Source: Fibrobacter sp. (GTDB lineage: Bacteria > Fibrobacterota > Fibrobacteria > Fibrobacterales > Fibrobacteraceae). From it: DNA of 35,163 bases. The notes beneath the pieces were generated by a model that was not told the DNA's origin, searched no databases, and saw nothing but the letters and a program-made list of their open reading frames with translations. The position numbers and the translations under genes are program-made. Where the stretch lies: the NCBI GenBank assembly GCA_024398965.1, contig JAKSIF010000028.1, positions 1 through 35,163 on the forward strand. Direction: 5' to 3'. Below, in pieces: positions 7,036 through 20,175 of this stretch (its first letter is position 1; every line of letters starts with the position of its first letter).

Positions 7036-7076
7036 GCTCAAGACTTTTGGTACAGGGTTTGAGGAACGAGGTCTAT

Positions 7077-8321
7077 ATGTCAAATTCCGCTTTTGAACAG
7101 AATGTAATTGCCCTGGTATGGGACTGCGACAAGACTCTCATCAGCTCCTATATGCAGGAGCCGTTGTTCCGTTACTTCAATATCGACGGAGCAAAATTCT
7201 GGGCCGAGGTGAATGCCCTGAAGGCTCGCTACGGCGCCCAGGGAATTTCTGTCAATTCTGACACTTGCTACCTGAATCACATCTTGACCTATGTGAAGGC
7301 GGGTATCTTCAAGGGACTTTCCAACAAGCTTCTTCGTGAGTTCGGAAAGGAACTGAAATTCTATCCCGGTCTTCCCGACTTCTTTGGCGAAATCAAGAAA
7401 CTGATCGAGGAAGACCCCAAGTACATGGCTTTTGACATCCGGGTGGAGCATTACGTGGTCAGCACCGGCTTTGCGGAAACCATCAAGGGTAGCGCCATCG
7501 CGCCCTATGTGGATGGCGTATTTGGCTGCGAGTTCATCGAGGACGTTTTGCAGCCTGGTTTCTTGGACGGTAACATCACCCTGGGTTCTATCGACCACAA
7601 GGGTCTCCAGAATGACGCTGTGTCGAACGTCACCCTGGGTTCTATCGACCACAAGGGTCTCCAGAATGACGCTGTATCGAACGTCCCCCTGGGTTCTATC
7701 GACCACAAGGGTCTCCAGAATGACGCTGTGTCGAACGTCACCCTGGGTTCTATCGACCACAAGGGGCTCCAGAATGACGCTGTGTCGAACGTCACCCTGG
7801 GTTCTATCGACCACAAGGGTTTCCAGAATGACGCTGTATCGAACGTCACCCTGGAGGGAGGCACGACCGATAGGGTCCAAGAAATCTCCCAGATCGCCTG
7901 CGCCCTGGATAACACTTCCAAGACCCGCTATCTTTTCGAGATCAACAAGGGTAGCAACAAGTATCCCGAGACCATCGACGTCAATTCCTCCATCGCTCGA
8001 GAAGTCCGCCGTGTTCCCTTCCAGAACATGGTGTACATCGCCGACGGCCCCAGTGACGTACCCGCCTTCAGTATCCTGAATTATAACGGCGGCAGCACCT
8101 TTGCGGTTTACCCCAAGGGCGACGTAAAGGGCTTCAAGCAGGTGGACGCTCTCCGCCGTGATGGCCGTGTGCAGATGTTCGGCGAGGCGGACTACAGCCC
8201 TGCCACCCAATCCTGGATGTGGCTTACGGAAAAGGCCCGTGCCATCGCCGACAAGATCGTGGAAGTGAAGCAGGCCGCCATCAAGAACAGCGCCGGCGCT
8301 CCGCCAACCCATTTGAACTGA
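7077..8321 (+). CDS. HAD-superfamily hydrolase with five-fold internal repeat
   Basis: The 414-aa protein has the HAD motif I at VWDCDKTLI (D16 nucleophile, D18), followed by a cap region with PLFRYF and a YPGLPDFF segment. A later IADGPSDVPAF motif supplies the acidic motif IV of the fold, as in phosphoserine-phosphatase-like HAD proteins. It is presumably a cytoplasmic phosphatase of unknown substrate. Residues about 166-260 are an 18-residue unit (NVTLGSIDHKGLQNDAVS) repeated five times, encoded by 54-bp direct repeats, inserted between the cap region and the segment leading to motif IV. The start at 7077 has GAGG upstream; a longer frame from 7047 lacks one. The insert keeps the frame open, so a full-length product is possible. 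Confidence 0.85.
   Translation: MSNSAFEQNVIALVWDCDKTLISSYMQEPLFRYFNIDGAKFWAEVNALKARYGAQGISVNSDTCYLNHILTYVKAGIFKGLSNKLLREFGKELKFYPGLPDFFGEIKKLIEEDPKYMAFDIRVEHYVVSTGFAETIKGSAIAPYVDGVFGCEFIEDVLQPGFLDGNITLGSIDHKGLQNDAVSNVTLGSIDHKGLQNDAVSNVPLGSIDHKGLQNDAVSNVTLGSIDHKGLQNDAVSNVTLGSIDHKGFQNDAVSNVTLEGGTTDRVQEISQIACALDNTSKTRYLFEINKGSNKYPETIDVNSSIAREVRRVPFQNMVYIADGPSDVPAFSILNYNGGSTFAVYPKGDVKGFKQVDALRRDGRVQMFGEADYSPATQSWMWLTEKARAIADKIVEVKQAAIKNSAGAPPTHLN
7572..7854 (+). repeat. Five 54-bp tandem repeats plus 13-bp partial unit inside a CDS
   Basis: Units occupy 7572-7625, 7626-7679, 7680-7733, 7734-7787 and 7788-7841, followed by a partial copy to 7854. Copies differ at only a few bases. Read on the minus strand each unit contains GTCATTCTGGAG, a GACC/GGTC mini-hairpin, then CGATAGAACCCAGGGTGACG. 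This matches the layout of the dispersed repeat at 105-152 and 31327-31373, here in reverse orientation relative to the gene. The unit length is divisible by three, so copy number can change without shifting the frame. Confidence 0.95.
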
Positions 8322-8784: not shown

Positions 8785-8826
8785 AGTTTTATCGACTATC
8801 ATGTTTTTGAACTACCTAGGTTGTTA

Positions 8827-11800
8827 ATGACGAATAAGTGTAAATGTGGAATTCTGATTAGCAAGACGCCCTACGACAAGCGCTATGCCATCATGGAAGA
8901 TGGTGAACTTGTTGAGCTTATCGTAGATAGCGGCAATGCGACCCAGGTTCTCGGCAACATCTACAAGGGAATTGTGCAGAAGGTTATCGCTGGAAAGCTC
9001 GCGTTCGTAGACGTGGGTCTGGATGCCGATGGCGTTCTTCTGCAGGAAGATGTGGTGGACAGGAATGCTCCCAGGGGCAAGAATGACCATGACGACGTGG
9101 CTCCCGTTGCAAGCATCGAAAGTGTGCTTCATGTAGGTGACGAGATCATGGTGCAGGTAAATGCCGAACCTTCCGGAAAGAAGGGTGCCGGACTTACCAT
9201 GCAGCTGAATCTCGCCGGTAGCCTCCTGGTCTGCATGCCCGGTACCGACTTGATTAGGGTCTCCAAGCGTGAAAAGGATCCGGCAAGGCGTAGCGACATC
9301 AAGCGTATGATCAATCGTACCAAGGGTCGCGACGTGGGTTATATCGTCCGTACCGAAGGCGTAAATGCCTCCGAGGTGGAACTGACCCAGGAAATGCGTG
9401 GCCTGGAAACCAAGTGGGAAAGCATCAAGGAAAACTTTGCCAACCTGAATGGTGCCGGCTGCCTGTACGAGGAATCCAATTCTACCAAGCGTGCCATTGG
9501 CGAATACATCAACGAGAATACGGATTACGTCTACATCGATAACCGTGACGAGTACTTCTCCCTCCGTGACGATCTGAAGTCCCTGTCTCCGGACAAGCTG
9601 GACAAGGTGAAGCTCTGGAGTTCCGCCGAAAGCCTTTTTGAATATTTCAAGGTGGAAAACGACTACGCCCGCTCCCTGCAGCGTACCGTTCCCCTGCCTC
9701 GTGGCGGTAACCTGGTTATCGAACAGACCGCTGCCCTCGTGTCCATCGACGTGAATACCGGACCTAAGGTTCACGGCAAGGACCAGGGAAAGATCATCCT
9801 TGAAACCAATATCGACGCCTGCCGCGAAATCGCCAAGCAGTTGCGTCTCCGTGATGTGGACGGCCTGACCATCATCGACTTTATCGATATGGAGACCGAG
9901 GCCGACAATACCACGGTCTATAATGAGTTCTGCAAGGCAATCCGCCGCGACAAGGCGGAGGTGATTCCTGCTACCATTAGCCAGTTCGGCCTGATGGAAG
10001 TGAAGCGCAGACGTATCCATGTGGACCCCATTGGCGGCAAGACCAATGTGTGTCCGGTTTGCAGTGGCGGTGGCCGTACGGCAACCCTGGAAAGCACTCT
10101 CGGCATGATCGACCGCTGGATGGCCCGTGCCAAGGCCAAGGGCAACCTCCATCAGGTTACCCTGGTGACCAACCCCTACGTGGTTGACGTCATGTGCAAG
10201 GACCGCAGCCGCATGTTCAACTACCTGGAACACAAGCATGGCATGACCATCGACCTGATCCAGGACGAGAACGCCCACGTGAACCAGTTCTGGATGTACA
10301 ACGAGAACAAGGAAGACATCACTGACCTCTACAACTTTGCCGATATGGAAAAGCCGGTCAAGGTCTCCGCTCCCAAGCGTTCCAAGAACTCCAGAAACGA
10401 CAGCCGCAGCAAGTGCAAGCGCGAAATCCTCATCAGTAAGACTCCCTACGAAAAGCGTATCGCCATCATGGAAGACGGCGAACTGGTGGAACTGGTGGTG
10501 GAAGGCGTTTCCTCTACCCGCGTGCTGGGCAACATTTACAAGGGCGTGGTCCAGAAGGTGCTTCCTGCACTGAAGGCTGCGTTCATCGATATCGGTCTCG
10601 AGAAGGCTGGCTTCCTCCATCAGGAAGACGCCATGGACCGTAACGAACTGCTGCGCCGCGAATATGGCGACGACGATGACGAGGATGGTTCTTCCAAGGA
10701 AATCTCCATCGACGAGATTCTCCAGGAAGGTCAGGAAATCATGGTGCAGGTTGTTAAGGAACCTATCAGCACCAAGGGTGCCCGTCTGACGACCCACCTG
10801 AGCTTTGCCGGCCGATTCCTGGTCTGCATGCCGGGTACCAACTTCGTCGGCGTGTCCAAGCGTGAACGCGACCCGGCCAAGCGTCGTGAATTCAAGAAGG
10901 TGGTCAAGCGCCTGAAGGGCCGCGATGTGGGCTATATCGTCCGTACCAACGGCCTGAACGAATCCGAGTTCGAAATCAACAAGCAGATGCGCGAACTGGA
11001 AAGCAAGTGGGAACAGACGAAGTTCAACTTCGAAAACCAGCCTGCCGAAACCTGCATCTACGAAGAGTCCGATTCCATCGAACAGACTGTCCGCGAATAC
11101 TTCAGCGACAACACCGACTTCGTATACATCGACAATCGCGAAGAGTACTTTGCCCTTCGCGAGTACCTGCAGCGCCTGTCTCCGGACAAGCTGAACAAGG
11201 TGAAGTTCTGGAACGAGAAGGTAAGCCTGTTCGAAAACTTCAAGATCGAGAACGATTACTCTCGCTCCCTGCAGCGTAAGGTTCCTCTGCCGGTTTCCGG
11301 CGGTAGCCTCATCCTTGAACAGACCGAAGCTCTCGTGTCCATCAAGGTGAACGAGGGCCACAAGTGCCGCGGTCTGGAAGTCTGCCAGGAAGCTTGTCAG
11401 GAAATCGCCAAGCAGTTGCGTCTTCGTGATGTTGGCGGTCTCATCATTATCAAGTTCCCCGAGATCGACGAGTCCGCACGTGAAACGGTCTACAACGAAT
11501 TCCGCAAGGCAATCCGTCGAGACAAGGCTCCTATCAGCCCGTCTCCCATTAGCCAGTTCGGCCTGATGGAAGTGACCCGCAAGCGCGTCCGTGTGAACCT
11601 CATGACCGAAAAGACCGAAGTCTGCGCCGTCTGCTGTGGCGGTGGCCGCATCGGTACTCTCGCTGGCACCTTGGGCATGATCGACCGCTGGATGGCTCGC
11701 GCCAAGGCCAAGGGCCGCATGCGTGACGTTACCTTGGTTGTAAGCTCCGCCGTTGTGGATGAACTCTGCAAGGACGACTGCAACATCTTCCGCTATCTCG

Positions 11801-11916
11801 AAGCCAAGCACTTCATGAAGATCAACCTGGTGGAAGACGAACACGCCCACGTGAACCAGTTCTGGATGTACGACAAGAACAACGAGGACATCACAGAGCT
11901 GTACAACTTCGTGTAA
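8827..11916 (+). CDS. Tandem-fused RNase E/G: active copy plus catalytically substituted copy
   Basis: The 1029-aa protein consists of two full RNase E/G-type units, about 1-505 and 529-1029, joined by a basic Ser/Lys/Arg linker. RNase E/G cuts single-stranded RNA in mRNA decay and rRNA/tRNA maturation. Copy 1 has the two magnesium-binding aspartates in SIDVN (D308) and IIDFIDM (D351), with the same 43-residue spacing as E. coli D303/D346. In copy 2 both are lysine (SIKVN, K840; IIKFPEI, K876), and about 7 residues between them are missing. Both retain the 5'-sensor-like IVRT and a CxxC zinc-link motif. Copy 2 has the more canonical S1 start (AAFIDIGLEKAGFL); copy 1 reads LAFVDVGLDADGVL. The ATG at 8827 is chosen because AGG lies 7 nt upstream; an upstream TTG at 8821 is the alternative. 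Confidence 0.93.
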   Translation: MTNKCKCGILISKTPYDKRYAIMEDGELVELIVDSGNATQVLGNIYKGIVQKVIAGKLAFVDVGLDADGVLLQEDVVDRNAPRGKNDHDDVAPVASIESVLHVGDEIMVQVNAEPSGKKGAGLTMQLNLAGSLLVCMPGTDLIRVSKREKDPARRSDIKRMINRTKGRDVGYIVRTEGVNASEVELTQEMRGLETKWESIKENFANLNGAGCLYEESNSTKRAIGEYINENTDYVYIDNRDEYFSLRDDLKSLSPDKLDKVKLWSSAESLFEYFKVENDYARSLQRTVPLPRGGNLVIEQTAALVSIDVNTGPKVHGKDQGKIILETNIDACREIAKQLRLRDVDGLTIIDFIDMETEADNTTVYNEFCKAIRRDKAEVIPATISQFGLMEVKRRRIHVDPIGGKTNVCPVCSGGGRTATLESTLGMIDRWMARAKAKGNLHQVTLVTNPYVVDVMCKDRSRMFNYLEHKHGMTIDLIQDENAHVNQFWMYNENKEDITDLYNFADMEKPVKVSAPKRSKNSRNDSRSKCKREILISKTPYEKRIAIMEDGELVELVVEGVSSTRVLGNIYKGVVQKVLPALKAAFIDIGLEKAGFLHQEDAMDRNELLRREYGDDDDEDGSSKEISIDEILQEGQEIMVQVVKEPISTKGARLTTHLSFAGRFLVCMPGTNFVGVSKRERDPAKRREFKKVVKRLKGRDVGYIVRTNGLNESEFEINKQMRELESKWEQTKFNFENQPAETCIYEESDSIEQTVREYFSDNTDFVYIDNREEYFALREYLQRLSPDKLNKVKFWNEKVSLFENFKIENDYSRSLQRKVPLPVSGGSLILEQTEALVSIKVNEGHKCRGLEVCQEACQEIAKQLRLRDVGGLIIIKFPEIDESARETVYNEFRKAIRRDKAPISPSPISQFGLMEVTRKRVRVNLMTEKTEVCAVCCGGGRIGTLAGTLGMIDRWMARAKAKGRMRDVTLVVSSAVVDELCKDDCNIFRYLEAKHFMKINLVEDEHAHVNQFWMYDKNNEDITELYNFV

Positions 11917-11955
11917 GGTGGCGCCGGGGCAATCCTGGAATCAAACCTTAAAAAA

Positions 11956-11987
11956 GAAGGCCGTGCAAACAAGCACGGTCTTCTTTT
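11956..11987. terminator. Bidirectional terminator between RNase E/G and fibro-slime gene
   Basis: GAAGGCCGTGC (11956-11966) and GCACGGTCTTC (11973-11983) form an 11-bp stem with one wobble, followed by TTTT. Six A before the stem give a T run on the minus strand, so it can serve both convergent genes. Confidence 0.88.
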
Positions 11988-12046: not shown

Positions 12047-15000
12047 TTACATTTCCAGGTCCAGCTGGTTTACCTGGCCGCGACGTACGCCCCAGAGCTT
12101 GTCGCGGGTCTGGTCCATGGTAGTCTTGCCGTTGACCTTGATCTTGATCTGGAGTCGTGCGATGTACACGCCGGTACCGACCACGCGGCCGTCGTCTGCA
12201 CGCATGTTCCAGGCCAGGAAGATCTTGCCCTTGTTCTTAAGGCAGCCGCCTTCGCCGTAGACGGATTCGTCGGAGCACCTGATGGTGTTTGCGTCACCGC
12301 CCACATATTCGCCAAGCTGGCTGTAGTAGCGGGTCTGGTAGTAGAGTTCTACGGCATCGTCGGATACCAGGGACTTGGAACCGTTGCGGAATTCTTCAAC
12401 ATTGTATTCGTTCAAGGTTCCGTTCTTGATTGCCTCGATAAGGGTTTCGCTTACGCCAGCCTTCTTCAACTCCTCATCCATATCGCCCCTGCGGATTGCG
12501 TCGTACAGGTCTGCCTGGGTGACGGTGGAAATGTTGCCAATGGAGATGGTGGTGTCGCGGCTGTTTTCTACGCTGACGTCAATCAGCATCTTGATTGCAG
12601 CCACCTGGTCCTTGGGAAGCTTGCTGGTGTAGTTCTCTGCAGTGATGGTTCCTTCCATGACTGCGGCCACGGTCTCGTCGCTGATTGTGTAGCCTTCGCC
12701 AACTTCGCCACCGAGGACACCTGCGGCAATATCCTGGAAGATCATGTCCCTTGCCTCGGTCTCGGTCATGCTGGTGATGACTGTGTCGTAGCTGGTGGTG
12801 CTGCCCAACTTGGATTCTACGAAGGCGTCGAGAGCGTTGATGTCCTTCTGGGTTTCCTCGAACATAATCTTGGAAATGTCGAAGTCAATCAGGTTGCCTT
12901 GCACACCAAGGGAGTCGCCGATGCTCTGTGCATCCTGGGTCGTATTGGTAATGAGGGTCGGCTGGGTGGTTTCCTTCTTGGAGATGATTCCGTAGGGGTC
13001 CTCGCCAACGGCAACCACACCCGGGCTTTCGTTACTCAGTTCCTGGTCACCGGTGATGGTTACCCAGGGATTGTTCTTGTGGGGAAGATTTCCGAGAAGG
13101 TCCTGAGTGATTGTGTTTTCATCGACTGCAAAGTGGATCAGGTCTCCATTGTCAGGCATGATGGCGTCTTCGGTGGAGGGACTGTAGATCAGGATGACGG
13201 TGTTGTCGCTGCCGCCCTGCTGTACCGGGTTCTCGGGATTTTCCTTGACACCGGCGCGCATGCAGATCAGTTCGAACATTTCAAGATAGGCATCGCGGGA
13301 TTCGTCGGTGATTGCCTCACTGAGAGTCAGAGTCAGTTCGCGGTTGCCATCGCTACGCTTGGCCTTGACGGCCTTGAGAATGATGGGGCCGACGCCATCG
13401 TCGATGGGATCGTTTTCCGTATTGAACTGGGTGGACTTGCCGTCCTTGGAGTAAGTAAACCAGGAATTGATCTTGCCGGTGTAGGGCTCGCTGTTGCCAC
13501 CGGTGAATTGACGGCTGCCAAATCCACAGTTGTCGTCGGAGCATTCATTGCCCATGGTTTCGGCAGTAATGACCAGGTCGGTTCCGTTATCCAGCACAAT
13601 GTACTTGGTAGTTGTTGCAAAGGCTTCGCCGAAGGTGAACTGGATGGAGTCCAGGGTGGTCTCGCCCTTCAGCTTGCGATCGTACTGGACGAACATGCTG
13701 TCGGCACGGCCGTCGCCGTTGCGGTCGACGATGATGGCGTTAGACACACGGGGAATAGGCGGTTCCTTGAAGTTCAGGTTGATCCAGGAGGATGCTGCCG
13801 CGGCGGCGCCCTTGGCGGTAAGCGTTACGCCTTCGACAGGAGCGTTGGCGTGGACGTAGAATGTGGCGTGGGCGTTCTCGTCCAGCATGACGCTGGAAAT
13901 CTTCTTTCCGCCGATGGTATCCAGAATGTCAATGTTTGGGTCGGAGAAGGTCAGGTTGATCTTCTTGTTGTAAGTAGAGACCTGTGCCCATTCTTCCAAG
14001 AAGGTGATGTTCACCTGGTAGGTGGCGTATGCCCAGTCACCGATCTGTAGGGTATCGCCGCTTACTTCCTTGCCAAGAATCTTCCACTTGTCGTCTGCAA
14101 AGGCTACGGTCGGAATGGCGTAAGACGGAATGGTGATTTCAATGACGGTGGACTGGCTGGGATCGGACTTCAAGGTAATTTCCAGGAAGTAATGGCCGGG
14201 AGCCAGGGCGTAATTGTCTACGATCTTTGCGGAGTCGATACTGAAGGTAGAATCGTTAAGGATGACAAGGCCTTCGTAATATGTCTTGCCCGGTTCAAGA
14301 ATCTCGGGTTCTGCCAGGTTACCTCCAGTAAGACGGAAGTTGGATGCACCGCCGGTAGTATCCACTTCGGTGTTGCTTGCGTCGAGGCCGCAGGAGAGCT
14401 TGTTCTTCTTGTTGATCTGCCATACGCCGTAATTGGTTGCAGTACCGCGCTTGTCGGAGGTGACAAAGATGGATGCGTCCACCTGCAGGTCAATGGAAGT
14501 ACGCATGCGGAAGTTGGAGGAACTAGTGTGGCGTTCTACGTAGAAGATATGGAAATCATAGGTCTCGCCGGGAACCAGTTTCTTGCCGTTGTTCTGACCG
14601 ATGGTGTCAAGGAGCACTGCACCTGCTTCCTGGGCGTGCTGGCCACCGATATCTACGGCAAGGCGCCTATCGATGAACACCCACACGTCATCGTCACCAT
14701 AGAAGTCGAAGTACTGACCGGGAACATATTCGAACTGGGCCTGGATCTTTACGGTAAAGCCAAAGTTGTGGTTGCCACCGCTGCCGTTGAGCCAGTCGAA
14801 ATAGGGGTTCTCGATAGTGCCCGCATCATCAAGATACTTGAAATCATCCAACAGGAACATGCCGCCCTTGTTGTTCTCGTTACCCTTGGAAATGCGATCC
14901 TTGGAAACTTCTGCCAGCCAGAAACCTTCGTCATCCATGGAGATGTAAATGTCTCGGCAGGTCATGTTGGTATATTCGTTGCCCTTGTCGTCCTTGGCTA

Positions 15001-16102
15001 CAACTTCTGGCAGGAACCAGTCGGCTAGATGGGTGGTTCTCAAGCACTTTGACGGGAAGGGATCGGAGGGAACAGGAACACCATTCTTGCCCAAGTCGTA
15101 CTGGACCATGCCTTTGACGCTGTTACAGCCACCAGAACCGAAGTCAGCGCTGATACCGTTGGCGGGGTCGCCGTTTTGTCCCTTTCCATCACCATCGCCG
15201 CCAGTGCCGTGGAGCCAGTCAAAGACTGTTACCGGGAACTTCTTCAGGGGGCAGTCTCCCAGAACGCCGGGGTACTTGCTGAATACGGCGGGGGCGTCAT
15301 TCTTGTAGCCCTGCACCCAAATGGTGTCGGTAAGGGCTGCGATGGAATCCAGGTTGATTTCTGTGGCGGCAGTAGGCTCTTCACTTACCATGCCTTCCGC
15401 GCCTACGAAATTCGTACCGATGGTCTGCTTGAAGAAAACATTGAGTCCTGCCTCGGAAGGTGTGACGGATGCCTTGAACCAACCGCAGTACTTGTCAAGT
15501 GCGGTCATGGTGGCGACGGAATCGCCGTTCAGGAAAAGAATGGCGTTGGTGTTTGTCCAGGGAGTAAGGAAGTTGATGACCTTCTTCTTGGTTCCGGTGT
15601 TTCCGCCTGGGTTCTTGCCCGGGTCCTTGTCACCGGGCTGAGTTGCACCGGGATCCTTACCTGGTTCAGTAGCGACAGAGGAACTGCTTTTTGCGGAAGA
15701 TGAGGAGGATTCTGCACCGGGCTTTCCCGGGTCAGAGGGCTTGGGTGCCTCTGCCTTCCAGGTTCCGTCTTCGGCGATGGTCAGTGAAACGTTGTTTCCG
15801 CTTTTGAAAAGCTGGCTACCGGGAATATTGACCAGTTCCTTGGAGCACTTGTCGTCGATGTAGAATATGAAATTTCTCTTGTTCAGCTGGGTTGTCGAAT
15901 AGCTGATTCCGTCGCCAGCCGTTCTGCAGGATTGGCTCTGGGTGCCATTGTTGTTTACGACCTTATAGAAAATTGTACCGTCGTAGTCGACATCGGCGGT
16001 ATAGTTCGCCGCAATGGCGGCGGTACTCAAAGTCAGGAATAATGTACTCAACAATTTTAAGGGGCGCAGCTGAACTGCCCTCTTCTTTTCATTACACCAC
16101 AT
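12047..16102 (-). CDS. Giant secreted fibro-slime domain protein 1
   Basis: The 1351-aa protein has a signal peptide (about 1-32), an N-terminal domain, a Ser/Pro/Gly-rich linker (about 118-173), a PWTNTNAILFLNG-type carbohydrate-binding-like segment (about 175-265) and a fibro-slime/PA14-like domain (about 291-540: FDWLHGTGG, GFWLAE, FLLDDFKYLD, PYFDW, FDFYGDDDVWVFI, DIGGQH). Further on are a Ca-binding-type DRNGDGRADS motif, helical segments, and a C-terminal FlgD-Ig-like fold (FLAWNMRADDGRVVGTGVYI). Fibro-slime proteins of Fibrobacter are surface proteins linked to adhesion to cellulose; the exact role here is inferred. GGAGAG lies before the ATG. It is preceded by the terminator of its paralog at 16312-20175, so it needs its own promoter in 16103-16241. 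Confidence 0.88.
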   Translation of the reverse strand: MWCNEKKRAVQLRPLKLLSTLFLTLSTAAIAANYTADVDYDGTIFYKVVNNNGTQSQSCRTAGDGISYSTTQLNKRNFIFYIDDKCSKELVNIPGSQLFKSGNNVSLTIAEDGTWKAEAPKPSDPGKPGAESSSSSAKSSSSVATEPGKDPGATQPGDKDPGKNPGGNTGTKKKVINFLTPWTNTNAILFLNGDSVATMTALDKYCGWFKASVTPSEAGLNVFFKQTIGTNFVGAEGMVSEEPTAATEINLDSIAALTDTIWVQGYKNDAPAVFSKYPGVLGDCPLKKFPVTVFDWLHGTGGDGDGKGQNGDPANGISADFGSGGCNSVKGMVQYDLGKNGVPVPSDPFPSKCLRTTHLADWFLPEVVAKDDKGNEYTNMTCRDIYISMDDEGFWLAEVSKDRISKGNENNKGGMFLLDDFKYLDDAGTIENPYFDWLNGSGGNHNFGFTVKIQAQFEYVPGQYFDFYGDDDVWVFIDRRLAVDIGGQHAQEAGAVLLDTIGQNNGKKLVPGETYDFHIFYVERHTSSSNFRMRTSIDLQVDASIFVTSDKRGTATNYGVWQINKKNKLSCGLDASNTEVDTTGGASNFRLTGGNLAEPEILEPGKTYYEGLVILNDSTFSIDSAKIVDNYALAPGHYFLEITLKSDPSQSTVIEITIPSYAIPTVAFADDKWKILGKEVSGDTLQIGDWAYATYQVNITFLEEWAQVSTYNKKINLTFSDPNIDILDTIGGKKISSVMLDENAHATFYVHANAPVEGVTLTAKGAAAAASSWINLNFKEPPIPRVSNAIIVDRNGDGRADSMFVQYDRKLKGETTLDSIQFTFGEAFATTTKYIVLDNGTDLVITAETMGNECSDDNCGFGSRQFTGGNSEPYTGKINSWFTYSKDGKSTQFNTENDPIDDGVGPIILKAVKAKRSDGNRELTLTLSEAITDESRDAYLEMFELICMRAGVKENPENPVQQGGSDNTVILIYSPSTEDAIMPDNGDLIHFAVDENTITQDLLGNLPHKNNPWVTITGDQELSNESPGVVAVGEDPYGIISKKETTQPTLITNTTQDAQSIGDSLGVQGNLIDFDISKIMFEETQKDINALDAFVESKLGSTTSYDTVITSMTETEARDMIFQDIAAGVLGGEVGEGYTISDETVAAVMEGTITAENYTSKLPKDQVAAIKMLIDVSVENSRDTTISIGNISTVTQADLYDAIRRGDMDEELKKAGVSETLIEAIKNGTLNEYNVEEFRNGSKSLVSDDAVELYYQTRYYSQLGEYVGGDANTIRCSDESVYGEGGCLKNKGKIFLAWNMRADDGRVVGTGVYIARLQIKIKVNGKTTMDQTRDKLWGVRRGQVNQLDLEM

Positions 16103-16311: not shown

Positions 16312-19300
16312 TTAGAGACCCAGGTCAATGGCGTTCACGTCGCCGCGGCGGACACCCCAGAGGAAGTCCTGGGTACGGTCGGTAATGACCTTGCTGTTGA
16401 CCCTGATCTTGATCTGGAGACGGGCGATATATACGCCGGTGGAGGCCAGGCGACCATTTTCGGCGCGCATGTTCCAGGCCAGGAAGAATCGACCTTCGTT
16501 ACCCAGGCAGTTCTTGGCGCCGTCATCCTTGAAGATGTCTGCGTTGCAGCTGATGGTTTCAGACTGTCTGTTCACGTATTGGCCAAGGCTTGTGTAGTAG
16601 ATAGCCTCGTAGTAGAGAACGGTGTTGTCTGCCACGGCGTCAACGATCTTTTGAATATCGGAATCGCTTCCGCGGGTGTAGTTGCTTATGTTCTCTGCGG
16701 TCAGGAGGCCGTTCTTGTAAGCATCCACGATGACATCGCTAACACCGTACTTCTTCTTGGCATCCTTGATGGAAAGCTCGCCGGTGGAAACCTTCTTGAT
16801 GAGCTCCTCGATGGTGTAGGTCACCGTGGGAGTACCGTCCGGGTTTGTGGGAGCGTCCTTGTCGAAGTAGGCTGCTGTGGACTGCGCTGCCTTGACGATT
16901 TCTGCGATTTCGTTTTCAACAAGGGTCTTCATGTCCAGGTCGCCCAGGTAGTGGCCCTGGGTACCGTAGATTGCTGCAACCTGTTCTGCGTTCAGGGTGG
17001 TTTCGCTCTTGACAAGCTTGGGCACGGTGGCGTTGGGGCTTGTGATAATGACCCTTGCGCTATCAAACGTTGCGGAACCCTTGTCCAAGGTAATAACACT
17101 GGGGCTTGTAACGGTAACGCGCTGTTCGCCGGTAATACGGACCCAGGGGTTCCTGTCGTGGGGGCCTACATCCACAAGGTCCTTGGCTTCGCCACCGACT
17201 GTAATGGGGGTGAAGCGGACAGAGTCGCCTACGGCCGGGATGTAATCCGTTTCCATGCCCTTGGGGAAGACGAGCCTCCACTGGTTTGCAGGGATGGTTC
17301 CGATATCGCTGGCTTCCTTGATGGTGGAATCCTGCACGCCATCCTTCCAGACATGGAACCTGAATAGATCTGTGCTTGCATTCTCGCCATTGACGCCTTC
17401 GCTGAAAGTCATCTTGAGAAGGGTGTTGCCGTCGCCCATGTATTCCACTTCGGCGGCGGTAATTACGGGGCCTACGCGGTCGGTAAGAGCGCCATCCACA
17501 GGGAATATGGACTGCTTGCCGTTTTCTTCGTCAGTATAGGTGTACCAGATATTGATCTTGCCGGAGTAAGCCTTTTCCTTGCCGCCGGTAAAGATGGCTG
17601 TGCCGAAACCGTTGCCGCGGCCATTGGCAATGATGGATGCTTCGGTGGCGCCATCGACGTAGCTTGCGGTGTAGGTCTCTTCGAAGTATTCATTGAATTC
17701 GCTAAAGATGAATCTTGCGGAATCCAGAATGCTCTGGCCGCCAAGAGGCTTGTTGAACTGGATCCAGATGCTGTCGGAGCGTCCATCGCCATCGCGGTCA
17801 TAGATGTAGGCGACTTCGATCTGGGGCACCGGAGGTACGGCCATGTTGATGTTTGTCCAGCTGATGGACTGGTTCTTGGCGCCTGCGCTTGAAACAGTCA
17901 GGGAGGCGTTAACGATTTCGTCGAGACCCTTTACGAAGAAGCTGGCGTGACCCTGCTGGAGGAGGACTTCGTTAATGGCGTTGCCCATGGAGTCGCAGGG
18001 GAGCAGGTTCTTGTCGGAGGTCGTGATGCTTACGGCAATGCCGCTGTACATGGTTGCCCATTCTTCGGCGTACATGATGTTCACCGGGTAGAGGCGGCCG
18101 GCCCACATCTTTTCGTCCTTGATAAGGCTGATGGGGAGGGTGTCGCTGCTGACGTTACGATCCAGTTCGCTACCGAAGGGAGACCAGAACTGGGTATAGC
18201 GCAGAGTGTCCTCGGTTTCGAAGTCGATGGTAAAGTAGTTGGAGTCCTTTACGCTTGCGAATGCCAGGTTAGGCAGTTCGTAGGGATCCACAGTGAAGTA
18301 GATGTCCTTGTAGGCGTCGGGGTTGCTCTTCAGGCTTACGCGGATGTAGTAGGTTCCCGGAGGCAGAAGCATTGCCTTGCCAAGAGCCTTGAGATCCACT
18401 GTAACCTGGGTGTAGTCGTTCTCGATGGAGATGCCGCCGAAGTAGAGGGAATCCTGCTTCAACAGGAGGCCGCCCTTCGAGACGCCCTTGCCGAACAGGG
18501 TAAAGTTGGAAGGACCAAGTTCGATCTTTGTCTTTTCGGGGCTGGAGCTAAAGTCGCAGGCCAGTTCGCGTTCAAAGACCTTCTGCCAGACTTCCTTCTT
18601 GATAAGCTTTTCATCGTCGGAAAGATTCTGGAAGAACATGCTTGCGTCAGTCTTCAGGTCGATGGAGGTGCGCATCTTGAAGTTGGATTCGTCCCTATGT
18701 CGTTCTGCATAGAAGATGTGGAACGGATAGGTTTCACCTGGGGTGAGGTCCAGCTTCTTCAAGTCGATGGAACCGTTGGACTGGTGATGCTGACCGCCGA
18801 TGTCCACCACTAACTTGTTGTTGATGAACACCCAGACGTCGTCATCGCCGTAGAATTCAAAGTACTGACCGGGAATATATTCGAACTGGGCCTGGATTTT
18901 CATGGTGAAACCGTAGTTGTGGGTTCCCATGTCGTTACCCTTGATCCAGTCGAAGTAGGGGTTCGGAATGGTTCCTGCAGAATCGAGGAACTTAAAGTCA
19001 TCTAGGAAGAACAAGCCCTTTTCGGGACTTTCCTTGTTCTTCTGGCCAAGCCAGAAACCGTCGTTATCCAGGTTCAATTCCAGGTTACGGCATGTGACGT
19101 TGGTGTAGGCCTTGCCGTTGACCACTTCCAGGGTTTCAGGCAGGAACCAGTAGTCCAGATGGTCTGTAATCTTGCAGTTCTCGGGGAAATTTGCGGCACG
19201 AACCGGCACGCCGTTGGGGCCAAGTTCCTCTTCCACCATGCCCTTGGTCAACTGAGCGCAGCCGCCGGTACCGAAGTCCTGGCTAGTCATGCCGACCTGT

Positions 19301-20175
19301 GCCTTGGCGTTGGCTTCGTCGTTGCCGTCGCCATGGAGCCAGTCAAACATCATCACAGGCAAAATCTTGGTGGGGCAGTCTCCCAGTTCTTCGGGGTAGA
19401 CGGTAGACATTTCGGGCATGCCGTACTTGGCCATGATCCAGATGGTGTCTGCAATTTCAAGAAGGGAGTCCAACAGGATTTCTTCTTCTACGGGAACGTC
19501 CATTCCCTTGATAATGCCCTGGCTGCCGATGCGGGTTTCGCCGATGGTCTGTTCAAAGGCTACGTATACTTCCTTGGGAAGGATGTTGATCGTGGATTCG
19601 AGCCATCCGCAGTACGGAGACTGCATGGGCTTCATCTTGGTATCGTTGCCATTGACCTTCATGATGGCTGTGGTGTTGGACCACGGGGGAAGCAGGCGCA
19701 CCGTCTTTGTAACAGGGACCGGGATGTAGACGTCAGTGGGCTTGGCGTTCCTTACGTCCATGGTGCCGTCGTCGTTCAAGACAATCCATACTTCGTAAAT
19801 GGGCTGGGTGGTGTCCCCTTCCACATAGTCGGGGAAGATTTCCTTCAAAGTGGGGAGGGCCGCCTCGTCCTTGAACAGCAAGGAATCGCAGGTGCTCTTG
19901 CCTTCTTGGCACTGGAGGCCGAATCTCAGCTTACGGTCGTTGATGGCCGAAGCCTTGAGACGTTCCCCCTTGAACTCAATATGGAACATTCCGTCGCTTC
20001 CCATGGAAAGTGACTTGAACTTGAAGTTGGCTTCATTATCGGCGTAGTAGAGGCCGTTGCCGTCGTAAATGACATGTGCCTTTGCGACAATCTTGTTTTC
20101 GTCTTGCGCGTTGGCGGAAATAAAAAACAGAGCCAAGCAAACTGCTATGCTCCGGAACAGGTTCAGTAACCTCAT
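16312..20175 (-). CDS. Giant secreted fibro-slime domain protein 2
   Basis: The 1287-aa paralog of the gene at 12047-16102 has the same layout: signal peptide (about 1-23, ending ANA), N-terminal domain, a PWSNTTAIMKVNG segment (about 163-250), fibro-slime/PA14-like domain (about 272-510, with FDWLHGDGND, FLLDDFK-like FFLDDFKFLD, EFYGDDDVWVFI, DIGGQHH), a DRDGDGRSDS motif, helical segments and the FlgD-Ig-like C-terminus FLAWNMRAENGRLASTGVYI. It lacks the long Ser/Pro/Gly linker of paralog 1. Conserved Cys pairs near the C-terminus could form disulfides. AGGAGA lies 7 nt before the ATG. Likely exported and exposed at the cell surface, where it may bind plant cell-wall material (family knowledge plus inference). 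Confidence 0.88.
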   Translation of the reverse strand: MRLLNLFRSIAVCLALFFISANAQDENKIVAKAHVIYDGNGLYYADNEANFKFKSLSMGSDGMFHIEFKGERLKASAINDRKLRFGLQCQEGKSTCDSLLFKDEAALPTLKEIFPDYVEGDTTQPIYEVWIVLNDDGTMDVRNAKPTDVYIPVPVTKTVRLLPPWSNTTAIMKVNGNDTKMKPMQSPYCGWLESTINILPKEVYVAFEQTIGETRIGSQGIIKGMDVPVEEEILLDSLLEIADTIWIMAKYGMPEMSTVYPEELGDCPTKILPVMMFDWLHGDGNDEANAKAQVGMTSQDFGTGGCAQLTKGMVEEELGPNGVPVRAANFPENCKITDHLDYWFLPETLEVVNGKAYTNVTCRNLELNLDNDGFWLGQKNKESPEKGLFFLDDFKFLDSAGTIPNPYFDWIKGNDMGTHNYGFTMKIQAQFEYIPGQYFEFYGDDDVWVFINNKLVVDIGGQHHQSNGSIDLKKLDLTPGETYPFHIFYAERHRDESNFKMRTSIDLKTDASMFFQNLSDDEKLIKKEVWQKVFERELACDFSSSPEKTKIELGPSNFTLFGKGVSKGGLLLKQDSLYFGGISIENDYTQVTVDLKALGKAMLLPPGTYYIRVSLKSNPDAYKDIYFTVDPYELPNLAFASVKDSNYFTIDFETEDTLRYTQFWSPFGSELDRNVSSDTLPISLIKDEKMWAGRLYPVNIMYAEEWATMYSGIAVSITTSDKNLLPCDSMGNAINEVLLQQGHASFFVKGLDEIVNASLTVSSAGAKNQSISWTNINMAVPPVPQIEVAYIYDRDGDGRSDSIWIQFNKPLGGQSILDSARFIFSEFNEYFEETYTASYVDGATEASIIANGRGNGFGTAIFTGGKEKAYSGKINIWYTYTDEENGKQSIFPVDGALTDRVGPVITAAEVEYMGDGNTLLKMTFSEGVNGENASTDLFRFHVWKDGVQDSTIKEASDIGTIPANQWRLVFPKGMETDYIPAVGDSVRFTPITVGGEAKDLVDVGPHDRNPWVRITGEQRVTVTSPSVITLDKGSATFDSARVIITSPNATVPKLVKSETTLNAEQVAAIYGTQGHYLGDLDMKTLVENEIAEIVKAAQSTAAYFDKDAPTNPDGTPTVTYTIEELIKKVSTGELSIKDAKKKYGVSDVIVDAYKNGLLTAENISNYTRGSDSDIQKIVDAVADNTVLYYEAIYYTSLGQYVNRQSETISCNADIFKDDGAKNCLGNEGRFFLAWNMRAENGRLASTGVYIARLQIKIRVNSKVITDRTQDFLWGVRRGDVNAIDLGL

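Follow-up and report, generated by a model that had tools for sequence, protein, structure and literature searches.

What is the purpose of an RNase E/G gene that is twice the usual length, and in which one of the two encoded copies has lysine where the metal-binding aspartates should be? The question arises from a single frame in a stretch of 35,163 nucleotides of Fibrobacter sp. DNA (assembly GCA_024398965.1, contig JAKSIF010000028.1, positions 1 to 35,163 of the forward strand), called here the window. RNase E is a central enzyme of bacterial RNA decay, and the way its symmetrical protomers share RNA binding and cutting has been argued mainly from structures. In the initial annotation of the locus it was proposed that the second copy may bind RNA but not cut it, that a lysine can mimic the charge of the missing magnesium, and that each half keeps what the other has lost, so that the chain is a built-in enzyme/pseudoenzyme dimer. 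We asked whether the fusion is real, how widely it occurs, whether the complementary losses extend beyond a few residues, and what arrangement of the two halves would account for them.

A fused gene with two RNase E/G copies

The fused gene is one open frame of 1029 aa, and the features of the locus are collected in Table 1. Pfam finds RNase_E_G (PF10150, E values 5e-77 and 3e-69) twice and S1 twice, and each half alone matches NCBIfam TIGR00757 above its cut-off, at 348 and 373 bits against 326. The halves are 59.5% identical. Mapping onto E. coli RNase E confirmed the residue assignments of the initial annotation: E. coli D303, N305 and D346 correspond to D308, N310 and D351 in copy 1 and to K840, N842 and K876 in copy 2, and E. 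coli F67, the base-stacking residue of S1, corresponds to V70 in copy 1 and F596 in copy 2. By sequence and fold the protein belongs to the RNase E/G family, and it is the only Rne/Rng match in its genome, a nearly complete Fibrobacter assembly.

Table 1. Features of the fused RNase E/G locus and its neighbors, in window coordinates
Position	Strand	Feature	Remarks
7047-8321	+	Upstream HAD-like gene	
7572-7854		54-bp unit repeated 5.2 times (96% match)	In frame inside the HAD-like gene
8824-11850	-	Open frame of 1008 aa	Antisense to the whole RNase gene
8827-11916	+	Fused double RNase E/G gene	ATG at 8827, stop at 11914-11916; 1029 aa
8953-9489	+	Copy 1 S1 + 5'-sensor	Degenerate (53-57% identical to the single-gene consensus); Val70 at the position of Phe67; R175/T176 (E. 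coli R169/T170) kept
9679-9906	+	Copy 1 DNase I core	Intact active site D308, N310, D351
9907-10041	+	Copy 1 C-terminal DNase I segment (E. coli 356-400)	Diverged, the converse of copy 2
10042-10083	+	Copy 1 Zn-link	CPVC (C409, C412)
10303-10413	+	Copy 1 C-terminal tail and linker joining the copies	Linker Lys/Arg-rich
10528-11082	+	Copy 2 S1 + 5'-sensor	Conserved (96-99% identical to the single-gene consensus); F596, K650, R706, T707 kept
11272-11478	+	Copy 2 DNase I core	K840 and K876 in place of the metal-binding Asp; active-site loop 7 residues shorter than in single genes; fold retained in the predicted model
11479-11613	+	Copy 2 C-terminal DNase I segment	Conserved again (about 93% to the single-gene consensus across the copy 2 sequences)
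11614-11655	+	Copy 2 Zn-link	CAVC (C933, C936)
11952-11987	+	Terminator-like hairpin downstream of the gene	15 pairs
12047-16102	-	Large PA14-domain protein	Apparent paralog of the next
16312-20175	-	Large PA14-domain protein	Apparent paralog of the preceding

Distribution and origin of the fusion

One might suspect that such a gene is a sequencing or assembly artefact. This is not the case, as 20 of 80 Fibrobacter species genomes carry the same fusion, two of them being 100% complete in about 20 contigs. About 56 species have a single copy of ~500 aa, two gave no match, and fused genomes hold no extra single copy. None of the sampled genomes of other genera in the phylum shows the fusion (168 genomes and 41 genera, Fibrobacter included; the search was confined to Fibrobacterota). 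Genomes elsewhere in the phylum with several matches carry separate genes. Some of these (Fibrobacterota genomes G153-G159 of our sample) have two separate Rne/Rng genes, a ~540-aa RNase G-like and a longer (675-870 aa) RNase E-like one, so that the phylum has at least two ways of having two copies.

Fused and single genes share one locus, after an M23 peptidase and a HAD-like gene and before a PA14-domain gene, so the duplication happened in situ. In FastTree trees, which are approximate, the copy 1 sequences and the copy 2 sequences are each monophyletic (support 1.0 and 0.988), although branch support for copy 2 versus the single genes is low; two outgroup loci that gave a wrong frame were left out. 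The fused-gene tree mirrors the species clades of gyrB and rpoB, for which we used complete matrices because a concatenated gyrB+rpoB tree with missing data was distorted. We conclude that the fusion had one origin, early in the genus. Single-copy species are nested among fused ones, and the two forms alternate among closely related species at one syntenic locus, yet both gene trees roughly follow the species tree. Does this reflect an ancestral array with differential loss, or allelic replacement? Either is possible.

Reciprocal decay of the two copies

Do the complementary losses hold across the fused clade? Twenty distinct fusions were compared with 33 distinct single genes. At E. coli position 346 copy 2 has Lys in 20/20, while at position 303 it has Lys in 7, the subclade of the window, Asp in 11 and Asn in 2. 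The pair of lysines noted in the initial annotation is thus not universal, and only D346K is. At position 67 copy 1 has Val, Ser or Ile in 20/20, while copy 2 keeps Phe in 20/20 and K112 in 20/20. Single genes keep D303, D346 and F67 in 33/33, and copy 1 keeps D303, N305 and D346 in all 20 fusions. The loss in copy 1 is only partial, however, because the 5'-sensor residues R169/T170 are kept in both copies of all 20 fusions and copy 1 mostly retains K112 (18/20), so that its RNA-binding arm may not be dead and may retain some 5'-end binding. The two Zn-link Cys are likewise kept in both copies of all 20 fusions.

The same opposition runs over whole domains. Against the single-gene consensus, S1 and 5'-sensor are 54-57% identical in copy 1 and 93-94% in copy 2, while DNase I residues 280-320 are 94-95% identical in copy 1 and 64-76% in copy 2. 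The segment 360-400 switches back, copy 2 being the conserved one. In comparison with the single genes, which occupy the same locus, the N-terminal half of copy 2 is 88-97% identical and the catalytic core of copy 1 about 88% identical. Sites lost in only one copy split 33:1 (copy 1 v copy 2) in S1/sensor and 2:8 in the DNase I core (Fisher p = 2e-6). A circular-shift control that respects the clustering of sites matched this in 14 of 423 shifts of the domain labels, so the domain association is real but less extreme than the Fisher value. Tree depths are mirror images, 0.542 v 0.093 for S1/sensor and 0.090 v 0.544 for the DNase I core; the S1/5'-sensor evolves about 6 times faster in copy 1, the DNase I core about 6 times faster in copy 2. 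Within the clade of the window (clade A), dN/dS is 0.166 in copy 1 and 0.038 in copy 2 for S1/sensor, and 0.008 and 0.188, respectively, for DNase I; single genes have 0.033 and 0.029. The degenerate domains, with dN/dS of about 0.17-0.21, are relaxed but not unconstrained. The RNase H and small domains showed no clear partition, although the published duplex groove would predict one.

The lysine in copy 2

D346K is the only residue in the DNase I domain of copy 2 that differs from the single genes and is fixed. The codon is AAG, from GAC, in all 20 fusions, while neighbors N305, T306, I348 and D349 drift. No new acidic residue replaces the lost ligands. In the clade of the window the active-site loop is 7-10 residues shorter, and the net charge of the copy 2 DNase I core rises from -5.6 to +0.4. 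The predicted fold is nevertheless kept: a model of copy 2 alone, built with 50 sequences (pLDDT 81.9), matches 2bx2 (Z 33.8, 463 residues, rmsd 7.5), and its DNase I domain lies within 1.4 A of 6x2d over 103 residues (Z 18.0). With catalytic residues lost, the fold retained in the model and purifying selection still evident (dN/dS about 0.2), copy 2 has the marks of a pseudoenzyme.

E. coli RNase E with D303R/D346R is the inactive mutant used to trap RNA (PMC6202311), and D346R is inactive as well (PMC3469820). The structures of the double mutant, 5f6c and 6g63, are the top PDB sequence hits of copy 2. The comparison is suggestive only. The engineered change was made in all protomers of a homotetramer, while here the change is natural, is Lys rather than Arg, and is restricted to one half of a fusion. 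A lysine in the second site probably takes the place of Mg2+, satisfying local charge and possibly still holding an RNA phosphate, but this is plausible inference.

A proposed asymmetric dimer in one chain

What arrangement would account for reciprocal decay? Published RNase E structures bind RNA on one protomer and cut it on the partner (PMC2631609), and in the cryoEM RapZ-GlmZ complex the 5'-sensor and S1 of the noncleaving protomer contact the RNA (PMC9841335). A homodimer therefore has two composite sites, each using the S1/5'-sensor grip of one protomer and the DNase I active site of its partner, although the papers we consulted do not state unambiguously which protomer's S1 closes over the active site. 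In the fusion, the composite site made of copy 2 S1/5'-sensor and copy 1 DNase I is conserved on both sides and under strong purifying selection, and the other is damaged on both sides. Segment 356-400, which holds the residue that contacts the 5'-end RNA in E. coli (R373; PMC6202311), follows the binding copy, not the cutting copy. We propose, with good though not full confidence, that a single-copy rne/rng gene duplicated in tandem and fused in frame at its own locus, and that the product is a covalently linked principal dimer that has become asymmetric. Copy 2 would bind the 5' end and the single-stranded substrate and present it in trans to D308/N310/D351 of copy 1, giving one cut site per chain. 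The trans pairing and the loss of catalysis in copy 2 are inferred from evolution and published geometry and not from assays, and a full-chain AlphaFold model built with 17 fusions was uninformative (pLDDT 48.8, pTM 0.26), so that the pairing is not shown structurally. Within these limits, the interpretation in the initial annotation is supported.

Other readings are possible. A neutral ratchet shares the anatomy of our proposal and differs only on selection for the lysine: after fusion one of two redundant composite sites was free to decay, the enzyme now works at half stoichiometry, and the lysines and basic changes are drift. The relaxed dN/dS is found in exactly the parts of one composite site, duplicated homomers tend to become heteromers under neutral models (PMC11066126), and about 56 sibling species do well with the single gene. 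Yet the invariance of K346 and of its codon amid drifting neighbors, for a change that needs two nucleotide substitutions, suggests selection on the lysine itself, and we regard the neutral reading as possible but somewhat less likely than not.

It might instead be that copy 2 is a regulatory brake, its inactive, basic DNase I face binding RNA or a partner and inhibiting or gating copy 1. The gain of basic residues in its DNase I core (K/R at E. coli 282 in 20/20; net +6) and the Arg/Lys-rich linker would fit, but the most conserved part of copy 2 is its S1/5'-sensor, at single-gene levels of constraint, which points to a positive role in substrate handling; we think a brake unlikely. About equally doubtful is pairing of like halves between chains, with copy 1 a self-sufficient enzyme and copy 2 an RNA-binding appendage. 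The retention of Zn-link cysteines and sensor residues in both copies would allow it, but a copy 1 dimer would have only Phe67-less S1 domains and a copy 2 dimer only dead sites, and no site would combine the conserved parts. Finally, the interspersion of fused and single states on species trees makes allelic exchange at the locus possible, and one might think that gene conversion from single-copy alleles produced the mosaic conservation. No near-identical DNA tracts were found, however: the copy 2 S1/sensor of the window is at most about 90% identical to any single gene, with third positions about 75%, as between fusions. Conversion also does not explain why dN/dS differs between domains within clades, and this reading is very unlikely.

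Relation to known ribonucleases

Each half has the domain order and fold of the E. coli RNase E catalytic domain. The fusion differs in having two copies in one chain, with one composite active site expected per chain instead of one per protomer, and the functional unit of the family is a homodimer. The division of labor resembles that of the eukaryotic tRNase Z long form (tRNase ZL / ELAC2), in which tandem duplication of a dimeric ribonuclease left one half with the substrate-binding arm and without metal ligands, and the other with the active site and without the arm (PMC3714273). This is a parallel and not a relative, since tRNase Z has an unrelated metallo-beta-lactamase fold, has the binding half first, and acts on tRNA. 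In the Fibrobacter case the pre-fusion single gene is still present at the same locus in sister species. We found no earlier report of an RNase E/G fusion or pseudoenzyme in the open-access literature, which is not proof of absence. It is more likely than not, in our view, that the fusion is a naturally evolved, covalently heterodimeric RNase E/G with a single composite active site per chain, in which an invariant lysine permanently locks off the second site. If so, it would be the first described bacterial RNase E/G pseudoenzyme half, and an evolutionary record showing that S1/5'-sensor and DNase I of opposite protomers form the working unit of the whole family. Because the two halves can be mutated independently, cis versus trans presentation, the need for two active sites and the value of 5'-end sensing become directly testable without mixing subunits.

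Neighboring features

The repeat array inside the upstream HAD-like gene adds about 90 aa of 'NVTLGSIDHKGLQNDAVS' repeats, and neighboring loci L031-L082, which include both fused and single forms, showed no such array. Relatives of the two downstream PA14-domain proteins are found at the same place in most sister loci. The long frame antisense to the RNase gene is probably a shadow of codon bias, with no sign that it is expressed.
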